Source of the DNA: Methylobacterium sp. CB376
GTDB taxonomy: Bacteria > Pseudomonadota > Alphaproteobacteria > Rhizobiales > Beijerinckiaceae
Assembly (NCBI RefSeq): GCF_029714205.1
Contig: NZ_CP121648.1
Span: 1,054,001 to 1,118,000, forward strand
Length of the DNA: 64,000 nt
Direction of reading: 5' to 3'
This document shows positions 7,880 to 46,189 of this stretch, one piece after another. Below the pieces are notes generated by a model, which did not search any database, was not told the DNA's origin, and was given only the letters and a program-made list of their open reading frames with translations. The translations under genes were made by a program, and so were the position numbers. Numbering within the stretch: position 1 is the first letter of the stretch; each line of letters begins with the position of its first letter.

Positions 7880-8134
7880 CTGCCTGTCCCCGAATCCCGC
7901 GCATCACCGGAGCGCGGGACTCCGTGAGACTGCGACACGTCCTTCATAACTCTGCGTCACGGCTCGGGACAGCCCCGTGCGGGAGGCCGGGCGACGCCGT
8001 CGCGTGCGGGCCGGACGCGTCCACCCGGATCCCGCCTCCCGCGCGCGGCCGCGGCGCCCGGCTCGCCTCCACCTTTGACAACCTGCCCGCGTCCCGGGAC
8101 AACCGGCAGCGGAGCGGGGCGCGGGACCGGCGGG

Positions 8135-10123
8135 ATGGAGCGCAGACGGCTGCAACGGGTCGTGCGGGCATGGCCCATCCGCTGGCGCATCCTGGGCATC
8201 GCCGGGCTCAACTCGGCCCTCGCCCTGGTGCTGATCGGGCTGATCTGGGACGGGGCCACCGTGCTGTCGCGGGCCTGGAACGACCTGCGGCAGGTGCGCC
8301 AGTCCGAGCACCTGCTCGGCCAGCTCGACCGCGACACCGAGCGGCTGCAGAGCCTGATCCACCGCTCGATCAGCCAGGACGACCCCGACATGCTGTGGCG
8401 GATCGGCGACCTGCGCGACACGCTGATCGGCCGGCTGCGCGTGCAGGCGCGGCTCGACCCGCTCATCGCCCGGCCCTCGGAGACCCTGCGGGAGGTCACC
8501 GAGCGCTTCATCGCCGGGTTCTCGGCCCTGCGCGAGACGCGCGCCCGGATCTCGCAGATCTACGAGGGCCGCCTCGCGGGGCCGGCCCGCGAGATGTCGG
8601 GGCTCTACGCGCTCATCGAGGGGTCCGACGCGGCCGGTCAGGCGCCGATCGGGCCGCCCCTGTCGAAGTCGCGGGAATCCTTCCACGCCATGATGCTGGC
8701 GGCGAACGCCTTCTCGCTCTCGGCCGCGGAGGCCTCGGCCGCGGAGGTGCGCCGGGCCGCCGCCGCGATCCGCGGCACGGTGCCGGTGATGCGCGACCGC
8801 GCGGCGACCGACGTGCAGAGCCGCGCCCTCGACGCGCTCGACGCCCGCGCGCAGGCGGTCGAGGCGGGCGTCGCGGCGCTCACCGCCGAGTTCGCCGCCC
8901 AAGGTCGCCTGCTCAAGGAGGAGATCGACGGCAATGCCGACCGCATGACCGCCTCGATCGAGGCGATGGGCACCCATGTGCGCGCGGTCGAGCAGGCGGC
9001 CCAGGCCCGCTTCGACCGCACCCTGGAGAGCGCGGCGCTCAAGCTCGGGGGCGTGGCGCTCGCCTTCGTGGCCCTGGTGGCCGCGCTCGGCACCCTGGTG
9101 GCCCGCAGCATCAGCGACCCGCTGCGGGGCCTGAGCGGCGCCATGCTGGCGATCGCCGGGGGCGACTACGCCCGCAAGGTGCCGGGCGCCGAGGCCCGCG
9201 ACGAGATCGGCGACATGGCGGCCGCCGTCGCGGTGTTCCGCGAGAACGCGCTGGCGCGGCTGCGGGCCGAGGCGGAGCTGCGCCGCGCCAAGGAGCAGGC
9301 CGAGGCCGCCCTCGCGGAGCTGCGCGAGACCCAGGCGAGCCTGATCGAGGCCGAGAAGCTCGCCGCCCTCGGCGGCCTCGTCGCCGGGGTCGCGCACGAG
9401 GTCAACAACCCGGTCGGCATCAGCCTCACCGTCGCCTCGACCCTGAGCCAGCGCTGCGAGGCCTTCGCGGCGGACCTCGCCGGCGGGCCCCTGCGCCGCT
9501 CGCAGCTCACGGGCTTCATCGAGGCCGTGCAGGAGGCCAGCAAGCAACTCGTCGCCAACCTGATGCGGGCGGGCGACCTCGTGCAATCCTTCAAGCAGGT
9601 CGCCGTCGACCGCAGCCAGGACAACCGCCGCCGCTTCGACCTCGGCGAGACCTGCGCGCAGATCATCGCGAGCCTGCGGCCGGAACTGCGCACCGCCCGC
9701 ATCGCCCTCGCCCTCGACCTGCCCCCCGGCCTCGTGATGGAGTCCTTCCCCGGCCCCCTCGGCCAGGTGCTGACGAACCTGTTCCTCAACGCCGTGCGGC
9801 ACGGCTTCCCGGACGGGCGCGCGGGCACGATCCGGCTCGCGGCCGAGCCGCTGGGGTCCGACCGCGTCGTCCTCACCTTCAGCGACGACGGCGTCGGCAT
9901 GAGCGAGGAGGTGGCGCGGCGGGCCTTCGAGCCCTTCTTCACCACGCGCCGGGACAGCGGCGGCACCGGGCTCGGCCTCCACCTCGCCTTCAACATCGTC
10001 ACCCACCAGCTCGGCGGGCGGATCACGCTGCATGCGGCGCCCGGCGCGGGCAGCCGCTTCGTGCTGACCCTTCCGCTCGTCGCCCCCGTGCAGGAGCCCG
10101 GACGCAAGCGGCAGGCGGCGTGA
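8135..10123 (+). CDS. Membrane sensor histidine kinase
   Basis: From the ATG at 8135 the product is 662 residues; an in-frame start at 8075 would add 20 low-complexity residues and is less likely. Layout: membrane segment near residues 14-35, a long helical periplasmic sensor (to about 300), second membrane segment followed by a HAMP linker (SISDPLRGL), coiled coil, then an H box (GVAHEVNNPVGI) with phospho-acceptor His421, N box (NLFLNAVRHG), G1 (DDGVGM), F box and G2 (GGTGLGLHL). This is a complete cytoplasmic kinase core of the HK4/NtrB-like type. No response regulator gene is adjacent, so its partner is elsewhere in the genome. The signal is unknown. Confidence 0.92.
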   Translation: MERRRLQRVVRAWPIRWRILGIAGLNSALALVLIGLIWDGATVLSRAWNDLRQVRQSEHLLGQLDRDTERLQSLIHRSISQDDPDMLWRIGDLRDTLIGRLRVQARLDPLIARPSETLREVTERFIAGFSALRETRARISQIYEGRLAGPAREMSGLYALIEGSDAAGQAPIGPPLSKSRESFHAMMLAANAFSLSAAEASAAEVRRAAAAIRGTVPVMRDRAATDVQSRALDALDARAQAVEAGVAALTAEFAAQGRLLKEEIDGNADRMTASIEAMGTHVRAVEQAAQARFDRTLESAALKLGGVALAFVALVAALGTLVARSISDPLRGLSGAMLAIAGGDYARKVPGAEARDEIGDMAAAVAVFRENALARLRAEAELRRAKEQAEAALAELRETQASLIEAEKLAALGGLVAGVAHEVNNPVGISLTVASTLSQRCEAFAADLAGGPLRRSQLTGFIEAVQEASKQLVANLMRAGDLVQSFKQVAVDRSQDNRRRFDLGETCAQIIASLRPELRTARIALALDLPPGLVMESFPGPLGQVLTNLFLNAVRHGFPDGRAGTIRLAAEPLGSDRVVLTFSDDGVGMSEEVARRAFEPFFTTRRDSGGTGLGLHLAFNIVTHQLGGRITLHAAPGAGSRFVLTLPLVAPVQEPGRKRQAA

Positions 10124-10244
10124 TGCGAACGGCTCGGCGACGATTCGAGAACGGACCCGACGGTCGCGTCGCGTGACCGTCGGGGTGAGCCGCAGGCCCC
10201 GGATGTCGGTCCGCCGCCGAGCAACGCTTCGATGAACCGGCAAA

Positions 10245-10258
10245 TTGATTCAGATCAC
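10245..10258. promoter_or_regulatory. FNR/FixK-like box upstream of the universal stress protein gene
   Basis: TTGATTCAGATCAC matches the FNR consensus TTGAT-N4-ATCAA with one mismatch at the last base. It ends 57 bp before the ATG at 10316. It shares a 12-base core, as reverse complement, with the box before hemN. Together with the FnrN-type gene in this window it suggests oxygen control. Confidence 0.7.
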
Positions 10259-10315
10259 GGCGGCCCCATCCGCGCGATGATCCGGTGAGACCGGATCATC
10301 GAGAGGATCACCGCC

Positions 10316-11179
10316 ATGGCGATGCGCTGCCTTCTGGTTCCGACGGGCCCCGATTGCGATGCGCGCCCGCGCCTCGACTTGGCCCTGGCGCTCAGCGACC
10401 GGCTGAAGGCGCATATCGGGCTGACCTTCCTGTCCCCGCCGGCCGAGGACGTGCTGGCGGCGATCCCCGAAATGGCGATCGCCGCCGGGGTGACCCGCGA
10501 GCGCCTGGAGGAGGAGACGCGCGAGGCGATCGGGGCCGCGCGCGCCGCCTTCGAGACCTGGTGCACGGGGGCCGACGTGGCGGTGCGCGCCGGCGACGAC
10601 GTCCGCCCGGGCGTCACCGACGCCTCCTTCACGGTGCGGCTCGGGCCGGTCGATGCCAGCCTCGCCCGGGCGGGACGCCTGAGCGACCTGATCGTGATCG
10701 ACCGGCCCGACTGGCAGGACCCCTTCGCGACGGTGGCCTTCGACGCCGCGGTCTTCGCCACGGGCCGGCCGGCCCTGGTGGTGCCGCCCGGCCCCGCGCC
10801 GGCCGACCCGCTGCGCAAGCTGCTGATCGCCTGGAACGGCAGCCTGGAGGGCGCGCGTGCGATCGCCCAGGCGATGCCCCTGATCGAGGCCGCCGGCGCG
10901 GTCGCGATCTTCTCCGCCCCGCGCCGGGACGAGGACGCGCAGGACGCCGCCGAACTCGCCGCCTATCTCGCCCGGCACGGCATCGCGGCCGAGCGGCTCG
11001 CGCCCCCCGACCCGACCCGCTCCGTCGGCGCCGCCCTCCTGGAAGCCGCGCAGGCGAGCGGCGCCAGCCTCCTCGTCATGGGGGCCTACACCCACAGCCG
11101 GGTGCGCCAGTTCTTCCTCGGGGGCGTCACGCGCCACGTCCTCGACCACGCCCCCCTGCCCGTGCTGATGACGCATTGA
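10316..11179 (+). CDS. Universal stress protein family, tandem UspA-like
   Basis: A 287-residue cytoplasmic protein built from two Usp halves: residues about 1-150 and 150-287. The second begins KLLIAWNGSLEGARAI and ends with a MGAYTHSRVRQFFLGG motif and PLPVLMTH, the usual Usp C-terminal strand. The canonical ATP-binding G-2x-G-9x-G(S/T) spacing is not kept, so it may be a non-nucleotide UspA-type member. The ATG is preceded by a GAGAGGATCACCGCC ribosome-binding region, and an FNR/FixK-like box lies upstream. Tandem Usp proteins are commonly induced at low oxygen in alphaproteobacteria, which fits. Confidence 0.88.
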   Translation: MAMRCLLVPTGPDCDARPRLDLALALSDRLKAHIGLTFLSPPAEDVLAAIPEMAIAAGVTRERLEEETREAIGAARAAFETWCTGADVAVRAGDDVRPGVTDASFTVRLGPVDASLARAGRLSDLIVIDRPDWQDPFATVAFDAAVFATGRPALVVPPGPAPADPLRKLLIAWNGSLEGARAIAQAMPLIEAAGAVAIFSAPRRDEDAQDAAELAAYLARHGIAAERLAPPDPTRSVGAALLEAAQASGASLLVMGAYTHSRVRQFFLGGVTRHVLDHAPLPVLMTH

Positions 11180-11212
11180 CGGCGCGGGCCCGGACCCGGC
11201 CCGCATGCCGGG

Positions 11213-13333
11213 TCAGAACCCGGCCCGCACGCCCGCGAAGACGGCGCGGCCGTTGCCCGGGTAGAAGGCCGCCAGGGCCGCCGGCCCGCCCGCGACCTTG
11301 CGCGCGTCGGCGACGACCGAGATGTCCGAGACGAAGCGCTCGTCCGTCAGGTTGCGGGCGTCCAGGAACACCGACACGCCGTTCGCGACGTCGATCCCGG
11401 CTTGCAGGTTGACCAGCGCGTAGCCCGGCACGCGCAGGGTGTTGGCGTGGTCGGCGAAGGCCCCGCGCGGCACCCAGTCGAGGGAGGGGGCGACGTAGAA
11501 CCCGCTCGGATGGGTGTAGCGCAGCACCGTGCGCAGCACGTCGTCCGGGATGCCGGCGATGCGCCCGTTGCCGAAGACCGGGTCGTGCAGGAAGCGGAAG
11601 TCGTTGTGCGTCCAGACCTGCCGCAGGACGAGCGCGTCGCCCTCCGCGGCGAGGTCGCGGGCGAGGTCGAGGCCGAAGGCCGCCTCGACGCCCTGGTGGC
11701 GGGTGCGCGGGGCGTTGAAGGTCGCGGCCGGGATGCCGAGCCCGGGCGCGATCGCGTAGTTGATGAGTTCGTCCCGCACCTCGGCCCGGTAGAGGGTCAC
11801 GTCCCAGGACAGGCGGTCGATGCGGCCGCGCGTCCCGGCCTCGACGGTCCAGGCGCGCTGCGCGGCGAGGGGCACGAAGGTGGTCCCGAGCGCGTTCGTC
11901 TGCACGAGGTCCGAGAAGTCCGGCACGTCGCGCGAGCGGGTGACGTCGCCGAAGACCTGGATCTCCGGCAGCGGTTGCCAGAGCAGGCCGAGCTTCGGGT
12001 TGACGCCCTCGAAGGTCTCGTCGGCGAAGGCCGGGGCGGCGCTCGGCGGGGCGAGCCCGCCCTTGTTGCTGTAGGTGCGGTTCGAGGAGAACAGCTTCGC
12101 TCCCGTCATCAGGGCGAGGTCGGGCAGGATCCAGAAGCGGTTCTCCGCGTAGGCCTCGTAGTTCGAGGCGCTCTGCACGGCGTCGAGCGTCTGCGCCCCG
12201 CGCCGGCCGGCCAGGTTCACGAATTGCCGGGCGGCGTTCCGCCCCGCGAAGGCGCGCAGGCCCAGCAGCAGGTCGTTGCGGTGGCCGCCGAGGTCGACGC
12301 TGCCGGCCCAGTGCGGCGCGATCCCGTAGGTCCAGCCGTCCTGGTCGATGACCTGGAAGATCGGGTGGTAGAGCGACTTGTGGATCGCCCAGGTGTCGAT
12401 GTCGAGCTTGCCGACCTCGAGCACGAAGGAGGTGCGGTTGGCGATCCGCTCGGTCTCGACCTTGCGGGACTGGTTGCCGCTGAGCGCCGTCGGGCTCGCG
12501 GTCCGCGGATCGGTGAGGGCGCCGGACAGGGTCAGCGTGCCGGGCAGCTTCTGGTCGGTGAGGTAGGTCCCGAAGAAGAACCGGGTCTCGACGCCTGGCG
12601 CGAGCCGGTAGCCGAGATTGGCGTTGAGGTTGCGGGTCGCCTGCGCCTCGTGCTGCCGGTATCCGTCCGAATTCGTGACCGTGCCGTTGACCAGGATGTC
12701 GACCGGGCCGGAGATCCGCGAGACCTGGACGCTCTCCCGGACCGTGTTGAAGCTGCCGCCCTCGACGCGCAGGAGCGTGGGCGCGAGGGCGGTGTGGGCG
12801 GTGGGCGTGACGGCGTTGACGGCGCCCCCCAGGGTGGTGGCGCCGAAGGCGAACGCGTCGCCGCCCTTGTAGATCTCCAGCGAGCGCAGGGCCGGCAAGT
12901 CGATCTGGTAGAAGTCGCCGCTCCCGTCCGCGAGGTTGAACGGGATGCCGTCCTGCAGGAGCTCGATCCCGCGCAGGTGGAAGCCGCGGGCGACGCCCGA
13001 GCCGCGCACGGACAGGCGCAGCTCCTGGCCGTAGCGCTCCTGCACGGTGACGCCGGGCACGTCCCGAAGCACGTCCCGCAGCGTGTTGGCGTAGGTGTTC
13101 TGGTACTCCGCCGCATCCACGAAGCCGACCGAGCCCACGGTGGCGTTCACGGCCGCGCGCTGGGCGGCGACGCTCGGCACCGTGACGGAGCCGGAAGGCG
13201 GCGGCCCGCTCCCGGCGACGGTGATCTCGGAGAGGGCGATGGTCGTGTCGGACGTCTGGGCGAGGCCGGGACCGGCGAGCAGGACGAGCGGCAGCACCGC
13301 GGCGCGGCGGGCGGCCCGGGAACGGGGGGGCAT
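11213..13333 (-). CDS. TonB-dependent outer-membrane receptor
   Basis: A 706-residue receptor. A Sec signal peptide ends near residue 25 (LLAGPGLAQ). A TonB-box-like hydrophobic stretch (IALSEITV) follows, then a plug domain (about 50-170, with DVPGVTVQERYGQELRLSVR and GIELLQDGIPF) and a barrel of repeated amphipathic strands ending in a C-terminal aromatic residue (FAGVRAGF). Ligand cannot be read from sequence. The plug and barrel layout is closest to the FecA/metal-complex group, and the neighbouring Cys/His-containing DUF2946-like protein points to a metal ligand such as copper or iron. It is transcribed after the DUF2946-like gene, whose frame runs into this one. Confidence 0.9.
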   Translation of the reverse strand: MPPRSRAARRAAVLPLVLLAGPGLAQTSDTTIALSEITVAGSGPPPSGSVTVPSVAAQRAAVNATVGSVGFVDAAEYQNTYANTLRDVLRDVPGVTVQERYGQELRLSVRGSGVARGFHLRGIELLQDGIPFNLADGSGDFYQIDLPALRSLEIYKGGDAFAFGATTLGGAVNAVTPTAHTALAPTLLRVEGGSFNTVRESVQVSRISGPVDILVNGTVTNSDGYRQHEAQATRNLNANLGYRLAPGVETRFFFGTYLTDQKLPGTLTLSGALTDPRTASPTALSGNQSRKVETERIANRTSFVLEVGKLDIDTWAIHKSLYHPIFQVIDQDGWTYGIAPHWAGSVDLGGHRNDLLLGLRAFAGRNAARQFVNLAGRRGAQTLDAVQSASNYEAYAENRFWILPDLALMTGAKLFSSNRTYSNKGGLAPPSAAPAFADETFEGVNPKLGLLWQPLPEIQVFGDVTRSRDVPDFSDLVQTNALGTTFVPLAAQRAWTVEAGTRGRIDRLSWDVTLYRAEVRDELINYAIAPGLGIPAATFNAPRTRHQGVEAAFGLDLARDLAAEGDALVLRQVWTHNDFRFLHDPVFGNGRIAGIPDDVLRTVLRYTHPSGFYVAPSLDWVPRGAFADHANTLRVPGYALVNLQAGIDVANGVSVFLDARNLTDERFVSDISVVADARKVAGGPAALAAFYPGNGRAVFAGVRAGF

Positions 13334-13752
13334 GAGGGATCATCCGTGTCTGACAGGATCGTGGCGGGCGATCGGTCAGAGGACGGGCGGGGCTCGGGGG
13401 CCGGCGCTGATGCCGGGGGCGCGCGGGGCTGGGCGACGGTGTCGGGCCGGTGCGGGATCGGGACGGCGCGGCGGCGCGGCCAGGCCACGGGGCTCGCCTC
13501 GGCGGGCGGCGGAGCCGCTCCGTCGAGCGCCTGGGCCGCCACGCAGCAGGCGCCGTGGTTCGGGACGGGATGGGACTTCCCCGGCCCCGGCGCCTCGGGC
13601 GCGGACGCGTCCGGCGCGCAGAGGGCGTGCGCCGCGGAGGGCATCCCGGCCGCGAGCGCTCCCCCCGCCACCGCCTGCAGGACGAGCGCGTAGAGCGCGG
13701 CCAGGGCGATGACCGCGCGCAGGATCGGCCGGCGGGGCGGCGGGGCACGCAT
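13147..13752 (-). CDS. DUF2946-like small exported protein (3' end uncertain)
   Basis: Starting at the ATG at 13752 the frame encodes a signal-anchor (IALAALYALVLQAVAGGALA) and a short region with cysteines and histidine (HALC, HGACC) and then a Pro/Ala-rich tail, the layout of DUF2946 proteins found beside TonB receptors. Family members are about 120-140 residues, but this frame stays open for 201 codons and overlaps the receptor gene by 187 bp. The last 60 residues therefore look like a shadow of the receptor gene, and the true stop may have been lost by a small indel. Function unknown; a link to copper handling is inference from family context. Confidence 0.5.
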   Translation of the reverse strand: MRAPPPRRPILRAVIALAALYALVLQAVAGGALAAGMPSAAHALCAPDASAPEAPGPGKSHPVPNHGACCVAAQALDGAAPPPAEASPVAWPRRRAVPIPHRPDTVAQPRAPPASAPAPEPRPSSDRSPATILSDTDDPSCPPVPGPPAAPRCCRSSCSPVPASPRRPTRPSPSPRSPSPGAGRRLPAPSRCRASPPSARP

Positions 13753-13840
13753 GCGAGAGGCGTAGGTGGGCCGGCAAGAAGGTGTCAATCGCGCCGCGGC
13801 GGTCGCCGGGCGTTTCTCCCCGCCTGCGACCCGGCGGCAT

Positions 13841-13960
13841 CTCATCCGCCATCCGGTTGATGGCTTCGCCATCTCCAATTTCGGCAATGCGGATGTCGGC
13901 TCCGCTCAGGCGCCGCGCGGGCTCGTGAGACGGGAACCGCTTCGATCAAGCCGATCCCGG
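13841..13960 (-). repeat. Dispersed 3'-end repeat, copy 1
   Basis: Read on the minus strand, this contains the blocks 'GGCTTGATCGAAGC', 'GCGCGGCGCCTGAGCG', 'CCGACATCCGCATT' and 'GATGGCGAAGCCATCAACC', shared with 18602-18673 and 21811-21933. It ends 2 bp from the stop codon of the cytochrome c gene. Full form: left imperfect hairpin plus right body. Confidence 0.85.
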
Positions 13961-13961
13961 C

Positions 13962-14300
13962 TCATTCCAGGCTGCTGAGGTAGCGGATGACGTCCTCGAC
14001 CTGATCCGGGTCGAGGCGGAATTCCGGCATGGTCGGATGGCCCGTGGTGATGCCCTCGGCGAGGGATTCGGCGAGTTCGGCGACGGGGTAGCGGGTGTGG
14101 AGGTCGCGGAAGCGGGGCGCCTCGGGGAGCGGGCTCTCGCCCGTGCGCCCGACCGCGTGGCAGCCGGCGCAGTGGGTCCGCACGAAATTGCGCCCGCGCG
14201 TGAGGTGGGGATCCTCGACGGCCCGGGCCGGGCCGGCCGCGAGGGCGAGGCCGAGCGCGACCGCGCCGAGGACGGGGAAACGAGGGTGGACCAGGGGCAT
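13962..14300 (-). CDS. Exported monohaem c-type cytochrome
   Basis: A 112-residue periplasmic cytochrome c. It has a signal peptide cleaved after about residue 26 (GPARA), a haem attachment site CAGCH, an axial-methionine region GHPTMPEF and a terminal helix DVIRYLSSLE, a compact class I fold. The ATG at 14300 is chosen because it gives a standard signal peptide; an upstream in-frame start would add 39 low-complexity residues. An FNR/FixK-type box lies 52 bp upstream, so use in low-oxygen electron transfer is plausible. A decayed paralogous 3' end is found at 46068-46189. Confidence 0.9.
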   Translation of the reverse strand: MPLVHPRFPVLGAVALGLALAAGPARAVEDPHLTRGRNFVRTHCAGCHAVGRTGESPLPEAPRFRDLHTRYPVAELAESLAEGITTGHPTMPEFRLDPDQVEDVIRYLSSLE

Positions 14301-14351
14301 CGACCTCTCCGCGGTGAGACCCGACACTGCGCGAGCCGGCCCGCCCGGACC

Positions 14352-14365
14352 TTGATTCAACGCAA
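14352..14365. promoter_or_regulatory. FixK-type box upstream of the cytochrome c gene
   Basis: TTGATTCAACGCAA fits the FixK2-type consensus TTG(A/C)-N6-(T/G)CAA exactly. It lies 52 bp before the cytochrome start on the minus strand. The rest of 14301-14617 shows no gene. Confidence 0.6.
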
Positions 14366-14617
14366 GCCGCCGAGGCCGTCGGGCGAGGCCGCAGCGCCCC
14401 GCCCCCCGCTCCTGCACCGTCGTCGTGTACGAGTTGTTAACCGCTCGCTGCGACCGTGCAAACCGCTTGGGTGAGCGCCCCCGTCGCCATCTGCGGGAGG
14501 TTTCCGATCGCCGGGCAGCGGCGGCGAGACCGGCCCCGCGGGGTTCCGGGCGGCCTCCGGGCGGGCGGGCGCGCCTCCGCCTGGGGGATGCCGCGACCGG
14601 GTCGCCGGAGGGATGCG

Positions 14618-15727
14618 ATGCGCGACGATGCCGAGACCGGTGCGGAAGCTGCGCGGGACCGGTTCGCCGAGATCGCCCGCGAACTCGCCGCCCTGCGCCC
14701 GGCCGCGCCGCCGGACCGTCGCCCGATCGCCGTCGTGGTCCCGATCTACAATGACTGGCCGGCGTTCCGGCACCTCGCGGAGGCCATCGACGCCGTCTGC
14801 GAGGCGGCCGATCTCGACGCGGAGATCATCGTCGTCGACGACGGCTCCTGGCAGAGCGGGGAGGAGACGCTGGCGGCGCTGGCGCGGACCGCGAAGCGCG
14901 TCCGCCTGCGCCCGGCAATCCTGGTGACCAATCTCGGCCACCAGCGGGCGATCGCGGTTGGGCTCACGCTCGCGAGCGAGCGGGCCGCGGCCTACGGGGC
15001 CGTGATCGTGATGGACGGCGACGGCGAGGACCGGCCCGAGCACATCCCGCTCCTGCTGCGGGAGAGCGCGGCGCATCCGGAGGCGATCGTCTGCGTGCGG
15101 CGCGGGCGGCGCTTCGAGGGCCTGCGCTTCGCCATCGGCTACGCGGCCTTCAAGGCGGCGTTCGCCCTCGCCACCGGCAAGACGATCGATTTCGGCCATT
15201 ACTGCGTGATCCCGCCGCGCGCGCTGACGCGCCTCGTGCACAGCCCGGCCCTGTGGAGCCACTTCGCCGCGGCGCTGCTGCGCGCGGGCGTGCCGCTGCA
15301 CCGCGTCCGCCTCGACCGGGGGGTGCGCTACGCCGGGCGCTCCAGCATGAACCTGACCTCGCTGATCCGCCACGGGCTCAACGCCATCGCGGTCTTCGAG
15401 GACGTCTGCCTGGTGCGCCTGCTGATCGCGCTCGGGGTCTTCTCGGCCGGGATCTGCGCGGCGCTGATCGGCGTCGTGGCGGTCCGCTTCGGCACGGACC
15501 TGGCGATCCCGGGCTGGGCGACGAGCGCCGCCGGGCTGCTGCTCGTGGCCCTGCTCCAGGCGGCGCTGCTGGCCATCACCTCGGCGGCCTCGCACCTCAA
15601 CCGCCGCTCCCTGTCCGAGATGGTGCCCGCCCGGGACGCGGCGCGCTTCCTCGGTCCGGCGGCCCCGCGCGGCGGCGCCCAGCCGCTTCCCCCATCCGGA
15701 GAGACGACGTGGAAGGCAGCATCCTGA
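14618..15727 (+). CDS. GT2 glycosyltransferase, DPM1-like, membrane-anchored
   Basis: A 369-residue family 2 glycosyltransferase. The GT-A domain (about 35-240) has the nucleotide-binding start AVVVPIYND, a first acidic motif VVDDGSW and a metal-binding variant MDGDGED. Two C-terminal membrane segments (about 270-325) anchor it in the inner membrane, as in polyprenyl-phosphate sugar synthases and GtrB-like proteins. The ATG at 14618 is fixed by a GGAGG six bases upstream. It is the first gene of a three-gene operon; the next gene overlaps its end by 19 bp. Likely role: charging a polyprenyl carrier or modifying a surface glycan. Confidence 0.85.
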   Translation: MRDDAETGAEAARDRFAEIARELAALRPAAPPDRRPIAVVVPIYNDWPAFRHLAEAIDAVCEAADLDAEIIVVDDGSWQSGEETLAALARTAKRVRLRPAILVTNLGHQRAIAVGLTLASERAAAYGAVIVMDGDGEDRPEHIPLLLRESAAHPEAIVCVRRGRRFEGLRFAIGYAAFKAAFALATGKTIDFGHYCVIPPRALTRLVHSPALWSHFAAALLRAGVPLHRVRLDRGVRYAGRSSMNLTSLIRHGLNAIAVFEDVCLVRLLIALGVFSAGICAALIGVVAVRFGTDLAIPGWATSAAGLLLVALLQAALLAITSAASHLNRRSLSEMVPARDAARFLGPAAPRGGAQPLPPSGETTWKAAS

Positions 15728-16431
15728 GCCAGGGCGACTACGTCGGCACCGAACTCGACCTCTTCTCCGCCGCCACGACCTGGAAGGCCTACTGGTCGGG
15801 CGAGATCGCCCCCTTCCTGCGCGGGCGCGTGCTCGACGTGGGAGCGGGCCTCGGGGCGACCGCCGAGATCCTCGGCCGGCACCCGGCCGTGACCGAGTGG
15901 ACCTGCCTCGAACCCGACCGGGGCTTCGCCGCCGCCCTCGCGGCGAAGCTGGCGGAGGGCCGGCTCGCCCCCCACACCCGCATCCGCCGGGGCACGCTCG
16001 CCGCCGCGGCGGCCGCGGGCCCCTACGACGCGATCCTCTACGTCGACGTCCTCGAACATATCCGCGAGGATCGGGACGAACTCGCGCGCGCCGCCGCCTG
16101 CCTGGCGCCGGGCGGCAGCCTGGTGGTGCTGGCCCCGGCCCACCCGGCGCTGTTCTCGCCCTTCGACGCCGCGATCGGGCACGAGCGGCGCTACACCCGC
16201 GCCAGCCTGCGGGCCGCCGGCCCGGACGGGCTCGCCCTGACGCGCCTGCGCTACCTCGACAGCGTCGGCCTCCTCGCCTCCCTGGCCAACCGCGCGCTCC
16301 TGCGCCAGGCGATGCCGACGGCCGGGCAGATCGCCGTCTGGGACCGCCTGATGGTGCCGCTCTCGCGGCGGATCGATCCGCTCCTCTTCCACCGGGCGGG
16401 CAAGTCCATCCTGGCGGTGTGGGCGCGATGA
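15709..16431 (+). CDS. Class I SAM-dependent methyltransferase
   Basis: A 240-residue Rossmann methyltransferase. Motif I is VLDVGAGLGATAEIL near residues 44-58, the acidic end of strand two is CLEPD, and motif IV is ILYVDVLEHI with the HERRYT segment that is usual in glycan-associated methyltransferases. The start is taken as GTG at 15709, preceded by a GGAGAG element, and it overlaps the glycosyltransferase gene by 19 bp. Its stop overlaps the ATG of the next gene (ATGA). The tight coupling suggests it methylates a sugar or lipid-linked intermediate made by its neighbours. Confidence 0.82.
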   Translation: MEGSILSQGDYVGTELDLFSAATTWKAYWSGEIAPFLRGRVLDVGAGLGATAEILGRHPAVTEWTCLEPDRGFAAALAAKLAEGRLAPHTRIRRGTLAAAAAAGPYDAILYVDVLEHIREDRDELARAAACLAPGGSLVVLAPAHPALFSPFDAAIGHERRYTRASLRAAGPDGLALTRLRYLDSVGLLASLANRALLRQAMPTAGQIAVWDRLMVPLSRRIDPLLFHRAGKSILAVWAR

Positions 16432-18614
16432 GGATGCAGGGCAGCCTCCTGGCCGGCGCGCCGCCGGCCGCCATCCCCCTCCCCGCGCGGCGGGCCGGGA
16501 TCCGGGCGGAGCTCGGCGGCGCCGTGCTCGCCGGCCTGCTGGCGGCCGCGACCGGGGCGCTCCCCCTGCTGCACGATCCGGGCTTCTACTTCACCGACGA
16601 TTGCCAGACCTACTTCCTCCCGGGCTTCCTCGAGATCGCCCGGCTGATCAAGGCCGGGGAATGGCCGGTCCTGACGCCCCGCCTGTTCCAGGGCGGCTCG
16701 CTCCTCGCCGAGTACCAGTACGCGCTCCTCAATCCGGTCTGCCTGCTGCTCTACCTCCTGCTCGACGGCTTCGAGCGCCTCGATCGCGCCGCCGCCTTCT
16801 ACGCCCTCACGCATCTGGGCCTGCTCGGCGCGGGCCTCTACGCCCTGGCGCGCAGCGTCGGCACCGCGCGCCCCTTCGCGGTGCTGGCCGGCCTGACCGG
16901 CGCCACCTGCCTGGGGATGATCTACTGGGGCGCCTCCACCTGGGTCCCGGGCCTCGTCAGCACGGCCTGGCTCGGCTTCGCGGCCGCGCTCCTGATGCGG
17001 GCGCGGGAGGAGGCCCGCTTCGTCGCCCCCGCGGCGCTCGCCGTCTTCCTCGTGGTGGCGAGCGGCTGGCCCTTCGCGGACGCGGCCCTGCTCGCCGGGA
17101 TCGGCACCGGCGTGCTGATCGTGCTGCAGAGCGGCGCGGGGCTCCGCTCCTGCGCCCGGGTCGTGCTGGCGGCCGGCCTCGGCTTCGCCCTCGCCGCCCC
17201 GGCCTGGATGCCGCTCGCGGCCGCCATCGGCAGCACCGCGCGGGTCGCCGAGGCCTTCTACCCGCACATGCTGCAGGCGCCCCTGCCGACGCTCCTCGCC
17301 ATCGGGGCGCCGCTCTTCCCGCAGATCTGGGTCAGCTTCTGGGGACCCGAGATCGTCGCCTCCCCGCCGATGCACTACGTCGGCTGGTGGATCCCGGTCG
17401 CGCTGCTCCATGGCAGCTGGAGCCGCCTGAGGACGCCGGCGGGGACCGGCGCCGCCATCCTGCTCGCCGTGACCCTGGCGCTCGGCCTGCTGGCGACGGC
17501 CCCGGGCGTCTCGCAGCTGCGCTGGACCTTCCGCTTCCTGCCCTATTTCCAGATCGGCTGCGCGGTGGTCGCCGCGTGGTTCCTGGCCCAGCCCGGTCAC
17601 CGCTGGTCCTCCAGCCCGACCGTGATCCTGGTCCTGGCGACCGCGGTGATCGCGTCCTTCCAGTCCGTGGCCCTCGCCAAGCTCAATCTCGTCTTCGCGC
17701 TCGTGGTCCTGGCGGCGGCGCTGGCGGTGCTGCGGGCGGGCGGCCCGCGGACCCGGGCGGGGCTCCTGGCGATCGGGATCAGCCACGTCGTCCTGTTCGC
17801 GCTGCTGACGCGCGTCTTCCCGCATAACGGACTCGTGCCGGAGTGGACTCCGCCCGCGAGCCGGGAGGCCTACCAGGGCGAGCCGCTGCGGAACGGCGAC
17901 GCGGCGCTGCTGCTGTTCGAGCGGCCGCTCTTCACGCATCGCGAGGTCGGCGGCACCCCGTCCGGCCTGTTCCGGGTCTTCCCGCACGGCAATATGGGCC
18001 TGCTCACCGCCTCGGCCTCGATCGCCGGCTACTCGCCGATGCGGGCCAAGGGCTTCGACGACCTCTGCCTCGACTATATCGGGGCGAGCTGTCCGGAGGT
18101 GGTCGATCTCTGGACCCGCCCCGATCCGGTGAGCGGGGGCAGCACCCTCGATCTCGCCCGGGTGACCCGCGTGACCGCGCAGGCCGGCGCCCGGGCGGAC
18201 GCCTTCGCGGCCTTCGCCGGGCCCGGCTGGACGCGGCGGCCGGTCGAGGGAGGCAGCGTGTTCGAGCGGGCCGGCGCGGGGGACCTGCCCGGCACCCTCT
18301 CGCGCCTGCCCGCCGGGACGGTGCTCACCGCCGCCTCCGAGGGCGCCCGCGAGGGCCGGTACGAGATGCGGGGCGAGGGCGGGCGCGTGGTCTGGGCGCG
18401 GGCCTGGTACCCGGGCTACGAGGCCAGCTGGAACGGGCAGCCCCTCGCCGTCGAGATCGTGAACGGCATCCTGTGCGCGGCGGTGGTCCCGGCCGGGCCG
18501 GGCGTGCTGACGCTGCGCTACCGGCCGGCAGGTTTCCTGCCGGGGCTCGCCCTGGCGACGCTCGCCCTCGGCGCGACGGCCGCGTTCGCCCTGCGGTCCC
18601 GGCGCGGCGCCTGA
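16428..18614 (+). CDS. YfhO-family polytopic membrane protein
   Basis: A 728-residue membrane protein with about 12 hydrophobic segments, a first periplasmic loop with DDCQTYFLPGF and a C-terminal soluble module that contains WYPGYEASWNGQPL, the signature of YfhO-type proteins that glycosylate lipoteichoic acid in Firmicutes and act in lipid-linked sugar transfer elsewhere. The ATG overlaps the methyltransferase stop by four bases, so it is the last gene of the GT2-methyltransferase-YfhO operon. The three products make a coherent set: carrier-sugar synthesis, methylation, transfer outside the membrane. The dispersed repeat (copy 2) begins on its stop codon. Confidence 0.85.
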   Translation: MRMQGSLLAGAPPAAIPLPARRAGIRAELGGAVLAGLLAAATGALPLLHDPGFYFTDDCQTYFLPGFLEIARLIKAGEWPVLTPRLFQGGSLLAEYQYALLNPVCLLLYLLLDGFERLDRAAAFYALTHLGLLGAGLYALARSVGTARPFAVLAGLTGATCLGMIYWGASTWVPGLVSTAWLGFAAALLMRAREEARFVAPAALAVFLVVASGWPFADAALLAGIGTGVLIVLQSGAGLRSCARVVLAAGLGFALAAPAWMPLAAAIGSTARVAEAFYPHMLQAPLPTLLAIGAPLFPQIWVSFWGPEIVASPPMHYVGWWIPVALLHGSWSRLRTPAGTGAAILLAVTLALGLLATAPGVSQLRWTFRFLPYFQIGCAVVAAWFLAQPGHRWSSSPTVILVLATAVIASFQSVALAKLNLVFALVVLAAALAVLRAGGPRTRAGLLAIGISHVVLFALLTRVFPHNGLVPEWTPPASREAYQGEPLRNGDAALLLFERPLFTHREVGGTPSGLFRVFPHGNMGLLTASASIAGYSPMRAKGFDDLCLDYIGASCPEVVDLWTRPDPVSGGSTLDLARVTRVTAQAGARADAFAAFAGPGWTRRPVEGGSVFERAGAGDLPGTLSRLPAGTVLTAASEGAREGRYEMRGEGGRVVWARAWYPGYEASWNGQPLAVEIVNGILCAAVVPAGPGVLTLRYRPAGFLPGLALATLALGATAAFALRSRRGA

Positions 18615-38559: not shown

Positions 38560-41235
<2,676 letters not shown>

Positions 41236-41430
41236 TCAGCCGAAAGTGAAGCTACCATCCGCACCGAAGTTGACCCTCACCCCGGCGATCATGTACGATC
41301 CTCCGCGAGCATCAACGACGTCTGAGTTTACAGTACCGCGGGTCCACTTCATTCCACCGTTCACATCATCGAGCTCCTGCTCTGACAGCTGCTGCGGCAT
41401 GATTTCCTGATCGTCATTCGAGTGGGTCAT
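41236..41430 (-). CDS. Double-glycine-leader peptide (bacteriocin/RiPP-type precursor)
   Basis: A 64-residue peptide. Residues 1-26 form a classic double-glycine leader: LSEQELDDVNGG matches LS-x2-EL-x2-V-x-GG, the site cut by C39 peptidase ABC transporters. The presumed core of 38 residues starts MKWTRGTV and ends GADGSFTFG, with many Gly, Val, Ser and Asp and no cysteine. A strong AAGGAG stands 8 bases before the ATG. No modification enzyme, transporter or immunity gene is found nearby; the flanks are decayed IS6 and recombinase DNA. Leader assignment is firm; activity (bacteriocin, signal peptide or other) is unknown. Confidence 0.82.
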   Translation of the reverse strand: MTHSNDDQEIMPQQLSEQELDDVNGGMKWTRGTVNSDVVDARGGSYMIAGVRVNFGADGSFTFG

Positions 41431-41721
41431 CGTCGTTTCTCCTTCAATATCAGGTTCGAAGTAGCGCTATTCGCCGCTTCATGCGCTGTTACTGCACCAC
41501 ACGGCCGCACTGATCTGTGCTTCAGGGCACGTGTCCGCACGAGAGCGTCGGACGCCAGGACGGTGCGACTGCGGCCTCGCGCTCAAAGCTGATCCGACGG
41601 GCGGGGACACGGCGGCGACCGACGCGCAGGCGTGGCGGCCGAGGGAACTCGCGCGCGCCGGATCACCGAGCAGTCCCTGCCGCAGGCGGCCGAGAGCGGC
41701 GGGCCTCGGGCGGCGGGCAGG

Positions 41722-44439: not shown

Positions 44440-44745
44440 GGATCTGGACCGACGCCCGGCGCCACGGGATGCCCGTCGGGCATCCCGCCGTGGTTAAGAT
44501 CTCGTTAACCATTCCGGCCCACACTCTCGCCTGCCGTGCTGAACCCCCATCCGGCACGGCGGCCCGGGTTCACCTCGTTCTCGCCTTGCAGGGATCCCGG
44601 GCCGGTGCCCTTCTATCCGAGACCGACCTCGCTCCCCGGCGGGGGCGAAGGCAGCGACCGCCTGACATCCCCGATCCAGCGGTCGGTCGTTGCAGCCAGC
44701 GGCCGGGCTCCGCCCCCACAGCGGGCCCGGCCGCCGCACCTCCAC
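44440..44745. repeat. Noncoding segment similar to 54478-54785
   Basis: Blocks GCTGAAC(A/C)CCCAxCCGGCACGGCGG, CCGAGACCG, CAGCGACCG and GTTGxAGC appear in the same order and at similar spacing in both segments, with GACGCCCGGCG at the start. Overall similarity is patchy. No gene is visible here. Confidence 0.5.
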
Positions 44746-45082
44746 GCAACAGCCCGCCATGGGACCTCGCGGGCATGGCGGCTTGCGCGGACCGGCCCAG
44801 GGCCAGCCGTGGAGGCCGTGCCTTCCCCGGTCCGACTGGACCAACGAGAGTGTCACGGCGGCGCGGGGCGGTGTTGATCTCGCTCAGTGGGTGAGCTTCC
44901 CTGCCCGCGCGGAGGCAGCGATCACGGGCGCTTTCCCCGCTTCTCCTCAGCGTCGAGGCCGATCTCCACGAGCCGCACCCGCTCCTCAGGCCGCCGCGCT
45001 GAAGGACTGACCTGTTCCAGGTCGGGGGAGGCACGGAGGGGCTTGATGCGGACCGCCAACGCGTGCGCGCCCTAGCCGCAAG

Positions 45083-45352
45083 ACCTTGGCGCTTCGCCTT
45101 TCGCGCCTCAATCGGGTCGATCCCCTCCGCGCATAACTTTCGGCGGACAAGTGCCTTGTCGCGGGCCTCCGCGAGCGAGAATGGCGAGGCTGAGCCGAGC
45201 CCCATAGCTCGCGCCCTGCCGCGCAGGGTGAAGCGGAAGATCCAGCTCTTGGCTCCGTTGCCCGTCACCTGTAGCCACGGGCCGCCACCGTCGCCGGACA
45301 TCCCCGGCGTCCTCAGCGTCGCGACCCTCACGGTGGAAAGCGTCCCGGTCAT
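45083..45352 (-). pseudogene. Tyrosine integrase N-terminal remnant
   Basis: 90 codons from ATG 45352 reading MTGTLSTVRVATLRTPGMSG, then WLQVTGNGAKSWIFRFTLRG and RRKLCAEGIDPIEARKAKR: the arm-binding domain of P4-type integrases. Downstream the frame degenerates and the core-binding and catalytic domains are gone. The rest of 44746-45763 contains no other gene I can support. Confidence 0.8.
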
Positions 45353-45763
45353 GCCTGCTGTTCTCACGCTCCTCCCCGCACCGTCATCGCGCGTTTCGGC
45401 GAGCTCCTGCGGCGCATCACGGACGACGGGCTGTGCCTTCCTCGGCCATTCAAGGGACTTAGCGGTCACATGCGCACCAGTACGGACGGTCAGCTCGCGG
45501 ATCTTCTCGCCAATCTGGGGTAAATTAATGAATCTTTAGAACGGCTTAGTAAAAATTACATCTTACACATCCACGATTTTACCCACATCGGATCGGCGGC
45601 TTGAGGCGGACGCCTATGGGTGCCCGCGAACGATGGTTGCGGCGGTGGGTCGCGCTTGGGTTCAGGCCGCCTGACGGCACCGCTCGATGCGATCGAGCCT
45701 GACGCTGGCCCCGCATGCTACAAACCACACCTGTGGGGGTCTGACCGGCAGAGCGGTGTGCCC

Positions 45764-46090
45764 TCAAGGACCGGCAGCAAGTCCGAGAGGGGCCTGCGGC
45801 TTGCCGGTCAGGCAGCCCTGCCCCTGCGCGCAGCCCTCGACCTCCACGAAGGCGAACTGCGCGGGCGTCTCCACACCCTCGGCCGTCACGGTCATGCTGA
45901 GCCGCAGCACCGACTCGCCGGGCGTCACGACCGGACCCGTCTCCTCCACGAGGGGGACGAACACGCCCGGGCCGAGCTGGCCACGGGTCGAGTGGTTCCA
46001 GCGCACCAGCGCCTCGACCGCGACAATCGCCCGGGAGGCAACGTCGAGGGCCGGCTGGTAGTGCAGCAAGAACTCGCCGAGTCGCTGGCC
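45764..46090 (-). pseudogene. EAL-domain (c-di-GMP phosphodiesterase) remnant with internal deletion
   Basis: Read on the minus strand: GEFLLHYQPALDVASRAIVA and VEALVRWNHSTRGQLGPGVF (start of an EAL domain), then directly after EETGPVV a jump to LRLSMTVTAEGVETPAQFAF and GCAQGQGCLTGKPQAP (end of the domain). About 150 central residues with most catalytic ligands are missing. No start codon of its own. Confidence 0.85.
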
Positions 46091-46189
46091 GAGGGCATCC
46101 GGACCGGTCACCCGAGCATGCCGGAATTCCAGCTTGACCGAGGTCTGGTGGAGGATGTGATCCGCTATCTCGCCAGCCTGGAGCGGTGA
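46068..46189 (+). pseudogene. Cytochrome c 3' remnant fused to the EAL remnant
   Basis: Forty codons reading QELAESLAEGIRTGHPSMPE then FQLDRGLVEDVIRYLASLER and TGA, closely matching the C-terminus of the cytochrome c at 13962-14300. The haem site and signal peptide are absent; upstream it runs straight into the EAL remnant on the other strand. From 46190 to 46458 I see no gene. Confidence 0.88.

Follow-up and report, generated by a model that had tools for sequence, protein, structure and literature searches.

A conserved-core double-glycine peptide family in Methylobacterium and Bradyrhizobium and its putative export by NHLM-type machines

The closest described counterparts of the peptide considered here are the NHLP and N11P precursors, which, according to Haft et al. 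(2010; PMC2887384), use the NHLM exporter (TIGR03796, TIGR03797, TIGR03794). The same authors report precursors that are distant from the modification and export genes, and name Methylobacterium sp. 4-46 in this regard. Recognition by C39 peptidase domains is described, in a further study (PMC6363468), as depending on the leader positions L(-12), E(-8), L(-7), a hydrophobic residue at -4 and Gly-Gly.

We examined a double-glycine peptide gene in a window of 64,000 nucleotides of Methylobacterium sp. CB376, this being the whole stretch of DNA analysed (positions 1,054,001 to 1,118,000 of contig NZ_CP121648.1; positions without a locus or contig name refer to it). Both the list of open reading frames and the homologues place the coding sequence, stop included, at 41236..41430 on the minus strand, with a ribosome binding site, AAGGAG, at 41439..41444 (minus), 8 nt upstream of the ATG. 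The 64-aa precursor consists of a 26-aa leader, MTHSNDDQEIMPQQLSEQELDDVNGG (41353..41430, minus), and a 38-aa core devoid of cysteine, MKWTRGTVNSDVVDARGGSYMIAGVRVNFGADGSFTFG (41239..41352, minus), in which the family alignment identifies the motif DVVDARGG. As in C39-processed double-glycine peptides, the leader residues L(-12), E(-8), L(-7), V(-4), G(-2) and G(-1) all coincide with the published recognition positions (PMC6363468). The original prediction had been right about a genuine double-glycine leader, a strong ribosome binding site and a 64-residue frame with a cysteine-free 38-residue core; it gave no strand, which is the minus strand, frame 1 of the plus strand over 41236-41430 being interrupted by stops. 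The gene has a GC fraction of 0.554 versus 0.699 for the window, a value equally low in about 5% of 195-bp windows. Another genome of this species (G125) encodes an identical protein; the gene differs there at two sites, both synonymous, which are too few to show selection on the window copy, and its flanks are 98.7-98.9% identical between the two strains. The gene is flanked by guaB (an IMPDH match) and by gene remnants, namely an IS240-type DDE transposase fragment at 40782-41174 (27.4 bits versus a cut-off of 27), an integrase Arm-DNA-bind domain (44573-45469) and a partial match to an EAL protein (45767-46111), making its earlier description as lying in a graveyard of mobile DNA a fair one.

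A search of 5.8 billion proteins with the single sequence returned the window peptide itself as the sole match. Three further matches (E 7e-10, 4e-8 and 1.3e-6) came from 397 genomes of the order, and these distant reading frames align with the window peptide across both leader and core, 13 columns being invariant. Of 617 candidates, 447 proteins matched a profile of the four sequences at E<=0.01, and 120 of these were listed; 116 of the listed ones make up our alignment A3, whose profile in turn matched 562 of 6673 candidates at E<=0.001 (again 120 listed). Those among the matches listed that carry organism names are mostly from Bradyrhizobium, with others from Nitrobacter, Labrys wisconsinensis, a Rhizobiales MAG and a Chromatiaceae MAG; their labels are mostly 'hypothetical protein', and some read 'bacteriocin-like protein'. 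By its sequence, then, the window peptide is a member of an unnamed double-glycine family with a conserved core and no singleton. It had looked alone in its neighbourhood, but the contingency named earlier as refuting, that no genome would hold a homologue, fails, for relatives occur in many genomes.

Other searches mark out the extent of the family. A class-wide profile search over 385 genomes matched only the peptide's own genome, the member P0014 had no match among plasmids, and of 51 stretches of viral contigs that fit a pattern in a search with profile A4, none was confirmed. No model in the Pfam and NCBIfam versions scanned covers any scanned member above its cut-off. Two listed members, P0065 and P0086, carry a precomputed label of a newer Pfam entry, PF27893, which postdates the Pfam version scanned; the window peptide bears no such label. 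In the literature searched, no paper was recognised as describing this family, and none of those found contains 'VIDARGG' or 'PF27893'. Among the curated class II bacteriocin models of Pfam and NCBIfam none exceeds its cut-off, the window peptide scoring 14.3 with Bacteriocin_IIc (PF10439; cut-off 27.1), and the signal-peptide model ComC (PF03047) reaches at best 14.8 among the members scanned (cut-off 20.4). Readings as XyeA, CTB or lantibiotic peptides were rejected, the matches being weak, confined to the leader and below cut-off. Hence the earlier view that the core matches no recognised class stands in so far as no bacteriocin model reaches its cut-off, but gives way in that the core belongs to a conserved family extending outside the genus.

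The family core consensus centres on DVIDARGG...G.T.TFD.NGK.SS, with D40, R42, G43, G44 and G59 invariant in all 116 rows of A3. Mean pairwise identity over these rows is 0.61 for core positions 27-63 versus 0.51 for leader positions 13-24 (Gly-Gly excluded), the core being more alike than the leader in 4799 of 6670 pairs; since the members were gathered by shared words and profile, which biases the sample towards conserved cores, this contrast is only indicative. In 19 cores taken from the fetched loci, pN averages 0.32 and pS 0.63, and pN is the lower of the two in 169 of 171 pairs. Because distant homologues keep both leader and core, and because pN is below pS among the family cores, the observation is more than chance. 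The window copy retains MKW, V38, D40-G44, G50 and G59, but has N54, G56, T62 and F63 where the family has T, D, S and S in 108, 110, 106 and 104 of the 116 rows, respectively. Given these departures at strongly conserved C-terminal positions, it may be a specialised or a decaying copy. AlphaFold2 on A3 gave a mean pLDDT of 62.8 and a pTM of 0.25, with a weak hairpin at 44-55, too poor a model to justify a fold search.

None of the four Peptidase_C39 matches in the genome lies within the window, which bears out the earlier report that the window has no C39 transporter as well as the suggestion that one may lie elsewhere; the contrary contingency, that the genome has no such transporter, fails, two of the four (E 1.2e-36 and 1.9e-33) being strong C39 domains of ABC transporters. 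The other two C39-like domains (L003, L004) belong to HlyB-type proteins above the cut-off of that model and were set aside. The best match, C1:104916-105299, is part of an NHLM exporter (locus L009, about C1:100-107 kb) situated 990 kb from the peptide gene. All three of its components exceed the curated cut-offs (ABC1, at C1:103179-105362, 1076 versus 853 bits, ABC2 927 versus 709, HlyD 301 versus 156) and the ABC2 frame is open; to judge from these frames the exporter appears complete and open. It is adjoined by a small protein that we call GVLSE, by one rSAM_ocin_1 protein above cut-off and by a weaker relative of the latter. Beside the rSAM proteins and the exporter there is also a reading frame with a Gly-Gly leader (ELSGAALEAVAGG) and a 49-residue tail (L009:18243-18593, plus strand), which is probably that cluster's own precursor. 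At least four further frames with Gly-Gly leaders are dispersed in this genome (L052 9029-9505 and 15239-15532, L053 9888-10121, L054 9454-9687); scattered substrates would therefore seem to be the rule in it. The second strong C39 domain (E 1.9e-33) belongs to an exporter at C1:about 4.22 Mb whose identity to the NHLM ABC1 is 30%. This locus (L010, G000:C1:4212000-4231500) combines, at 8014-17363, the C39-ABC exporter with two Cys-rich frames with ISGG leaders (12458-12577 and 12643-12807, minus strand), and also holds a PP-binding domain, a ketoacyl synthase, a MaoC-like protein, a partial lipid A acyltransferase and a TolC protein, perhaps pointing to a lipid-linked exported peptide.

The relatives in Bradyrhizobium link the family to the same type of exporter. 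Here 16 of 242 genomes carry the peptide, in 19 copies, one with two stops. NHLM ABC1 (TIGR03796) exceeds its cut-off in 62 of the 242: 11 of the 16 with the peptide versus 51 of the 226 without it (one-sided Fisher 2e-4, ancestry ignored). Strong C39 domains (E<=1e-25) are found in 95 of the 242, namely 13 of 16 versus 82 of 226 (5e-4, ancestry ignored), the two additional genomes with the peptide being G965 (87% complete, C39 in a 587-aa frame) and G974 (67% complete, C39 in a 309-aa frame). For five of the 19 copies ABC1 is 2.2-3.2 kb away, for two others 22 and 37 kb, and 12 have no ABC1 match on their own contig. One of these 12, in G974, adjoins a 963-aa ABC2-like frame, with a piece of ABC1 about 3.5 kb off at the contig end. 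In all, a copy is within 5 kb of an NHLM-type exporter in 6 of the 16 genomes. At the best-tested linked locus (L113), HlyD, ABC1 and ABC2 are all above cut-off, at L106 ABC1 and ABC2, and at L116 and L117 ABC1; the five peptide-linked ABC1s are 68-73% identical to that of the window's genome over about 705 residues. Three genomes (G1022, G986, G1106) have the peptide or a remnant of it and neither an NHLM ABC1 above cut-off nor a strong C39 domain; the copy in G1106 has the two stops and that in G986 is a weak match.

Some neighbours recur at these loci. The GVLSE protein, which is conserved, is present beside the exporter in five linked loci; it occurs at L009:11850-12413 (plus strand) and also in L117, L113, L106, L112, L116 and L058, its longer alignments being 40-72% identical to the copy in the window's genome, and it has no Pfam or NCBIfam match in the versions scanned. 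A protein with a cyclic-nucleotide-binding domain (PF00027), possibly a regulator, is encoded near the exporter and the peptide at L106:17816-18295 and L110:10300-10761. None of the other fetched loci encodes a relative of either rSAM protein of the window's genome.

Within Methylobacterium, the full core is found below E 0.1 in two of 111 genomes, the window's and one other of the same species. When the core alone was searched for, 16 of the 111 gave a match at E<=0.5, but 14 of these matches fall within frames of 128 to 16320 aa. In another search of the genus, the matches in G054 and G003, inside 865- and 1314-aa frames, were dismissed as chance, and what G020 has in common with the window peptide is the leader alone. 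Leaders of the same type are commoner in the genus than the full core. A leader model built on the window's sequence and three from G020 matches 54 of the 111 genomes at E<=1, many of them clearly by chance, and NHLM ABC1 exceeds its cut-off in 18 of the 111. All nine genomes with a leader match below E 0.02, a cut picked after the list was known, are among these 18; relaxing the cut to E<=0.1 gives 10 of 13, with G135, G103 and G110 as exceptions. With the window's genome (G000), G125 and G020 set aside, it is six of six, with ABC1 in 15 of 108 (p 3e-6, ancestry ignored), and the leader matches in these six are plausible frames with Gly-Gly leaders. The exception G110 has a good-looking double-glycine frame in the vicinity of an ABC exporter of another kind (30% identical). 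In G053 and G001, frames with the leader are no more than 4 kb away from the exporter, and the best ones in G020 and in the window's genome are located away from it; genuine-looking leaders are present in G029, G050, G118 and G150 and at two places in the window's genome.

Two further groups of double-glycine frames came to light in the genus. G020 encodes three in tandem (L044, G020:C12, 9331-10330, plus strand) with the same leader type and differing hydrophobic cores, on a contig other than those bearing its NHLM-type exporters. A second group, with cores starting LNPQPLPP or RMLNPQPLPP, is found in four genomes (L045:597-797, L047:12001-12144, L048:16415-16762, L058:9159-9422); the members in L047 and L048 are close to an NHLM exporter.

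These observations lead to the proposal that the gene probably specifies a secreted, apparently unmodified 38-residue peptide that is cut and exported in trans by the genome's own NHLM machine. The precursor would be translated, and the C39 domain belonging to L009, the NHLM exporter at about C1:100-107 kb, would recognise its leader through L-12, E-8, L-7 and V-4 and cleave after the Gly-Gly; the ABC1/ABC2/HlyD machine would then export the core, presumably unmodified, from a gene 990 kb distant. That distance is no obstacle, because precursors far from their export genes are described in PMC2887384. Outside the cell, the core would act on a conserved target. Its retention across genera fits such a target, for example that of a signal, better than a diversifying antibiotic; judging from this conservation, the core is more likely a signal or effector.

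Were the peptide instead a class II-type bacteriocin, its core would kill relatives, with the gene borne by mobile DNA and immunity conferred by an unlinked or unrecognised gene. The double-glycine leader, the low GC, the remnants of mobile genes, the patchy distribution (16 of 242 Bradyrhizobium genomes, two of 111 in the genus) and the source labels 'bacteriocin-like protein' agree with this, but the conservation of the core across genera and the failure of every bacteriocin model to reach its cut-off make it unlikely. No more probable is that the window copy is decaying, having arrived with mobile DNA and escaped selection in this strain, perhaps without being translated: the four altered positions, the gene fragments all around and the lack of the core beyond the window's species among the 111 genomes speak for decay, and the open frame, the good ribosome binding site, the exact C39 motif and the two substitutions between strains, both synonymous, against it. 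Export through L010 seems more doubtful still. Its C39 domain is strong, and the adjoining ISGG-leader frames indicate that it probably handles double-glycine leaders; however, these neighbours resemble its own substrates, and its ABC protein shares only 30% identity with the NHLM ABC1, to which the ABC1s found alongside the peptide family are 68-73% identical.

Diversification is usual in bacteriocin and NHLP cores, whereas the conservation of this mature peptide from genus to genus suggests a conserved target or receptor. Should NHLM machines export the core, their cargo would not be limited to modified peptides, and double-glycine genes that look 'orphan' for want of a transporter nearby would be explained. 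As a more tentative extension, NHLM exporters, known for RiPP precursors with long leaders and hypervariable cores, might also serve a family of unmodified, short-leader peptides with cores conserved across genera of Hyphomicrobiales; these would be candidates for an extracellular signal or effector that soil- and root-associated bacteria share, that can be encoded anywhere in the genome and that is exported in trans.

Compared with the NHLP and N11P precursors, as characterised by Haft et al. (PMC2887384), the peptide shares the Gly-Gly cleavage motif and the NHLM exporter type, both in its own genome and beside its relatives, but has a leader of 26 aa rather than about 83 (NHLP) or 70 (N11P). 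Neither nitrile hydratase nor Nif11 leader models are among its matches at E<=1. Its core is conserved (0.61 versus 0.51 for the leader, in a sample that favours conserved cores) rather than hypervariable, and no modification enzyme accompanies the linked relatives in a search for relatives of the genome's own rSAM proteins. The short leader and conserved core thus set it apart from NHLP or N11P precursors. With class II double-glycine bacteriocins it shares a short double-glycine leader and a small, cationic or neutral core that looks unmodified. The RaxX-type double-glycine peptides, which leave through the C39 exporter RaxABC, have a conserved core too and offer a precedent for action on the receptor of another organism, though the host group differs and the two are likened by description only. 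Taken together, the window peptide would appear, from its sequence features, to work like a C39-exported double-glycine peptide, with cleavage predicted after the Gly-Gly.
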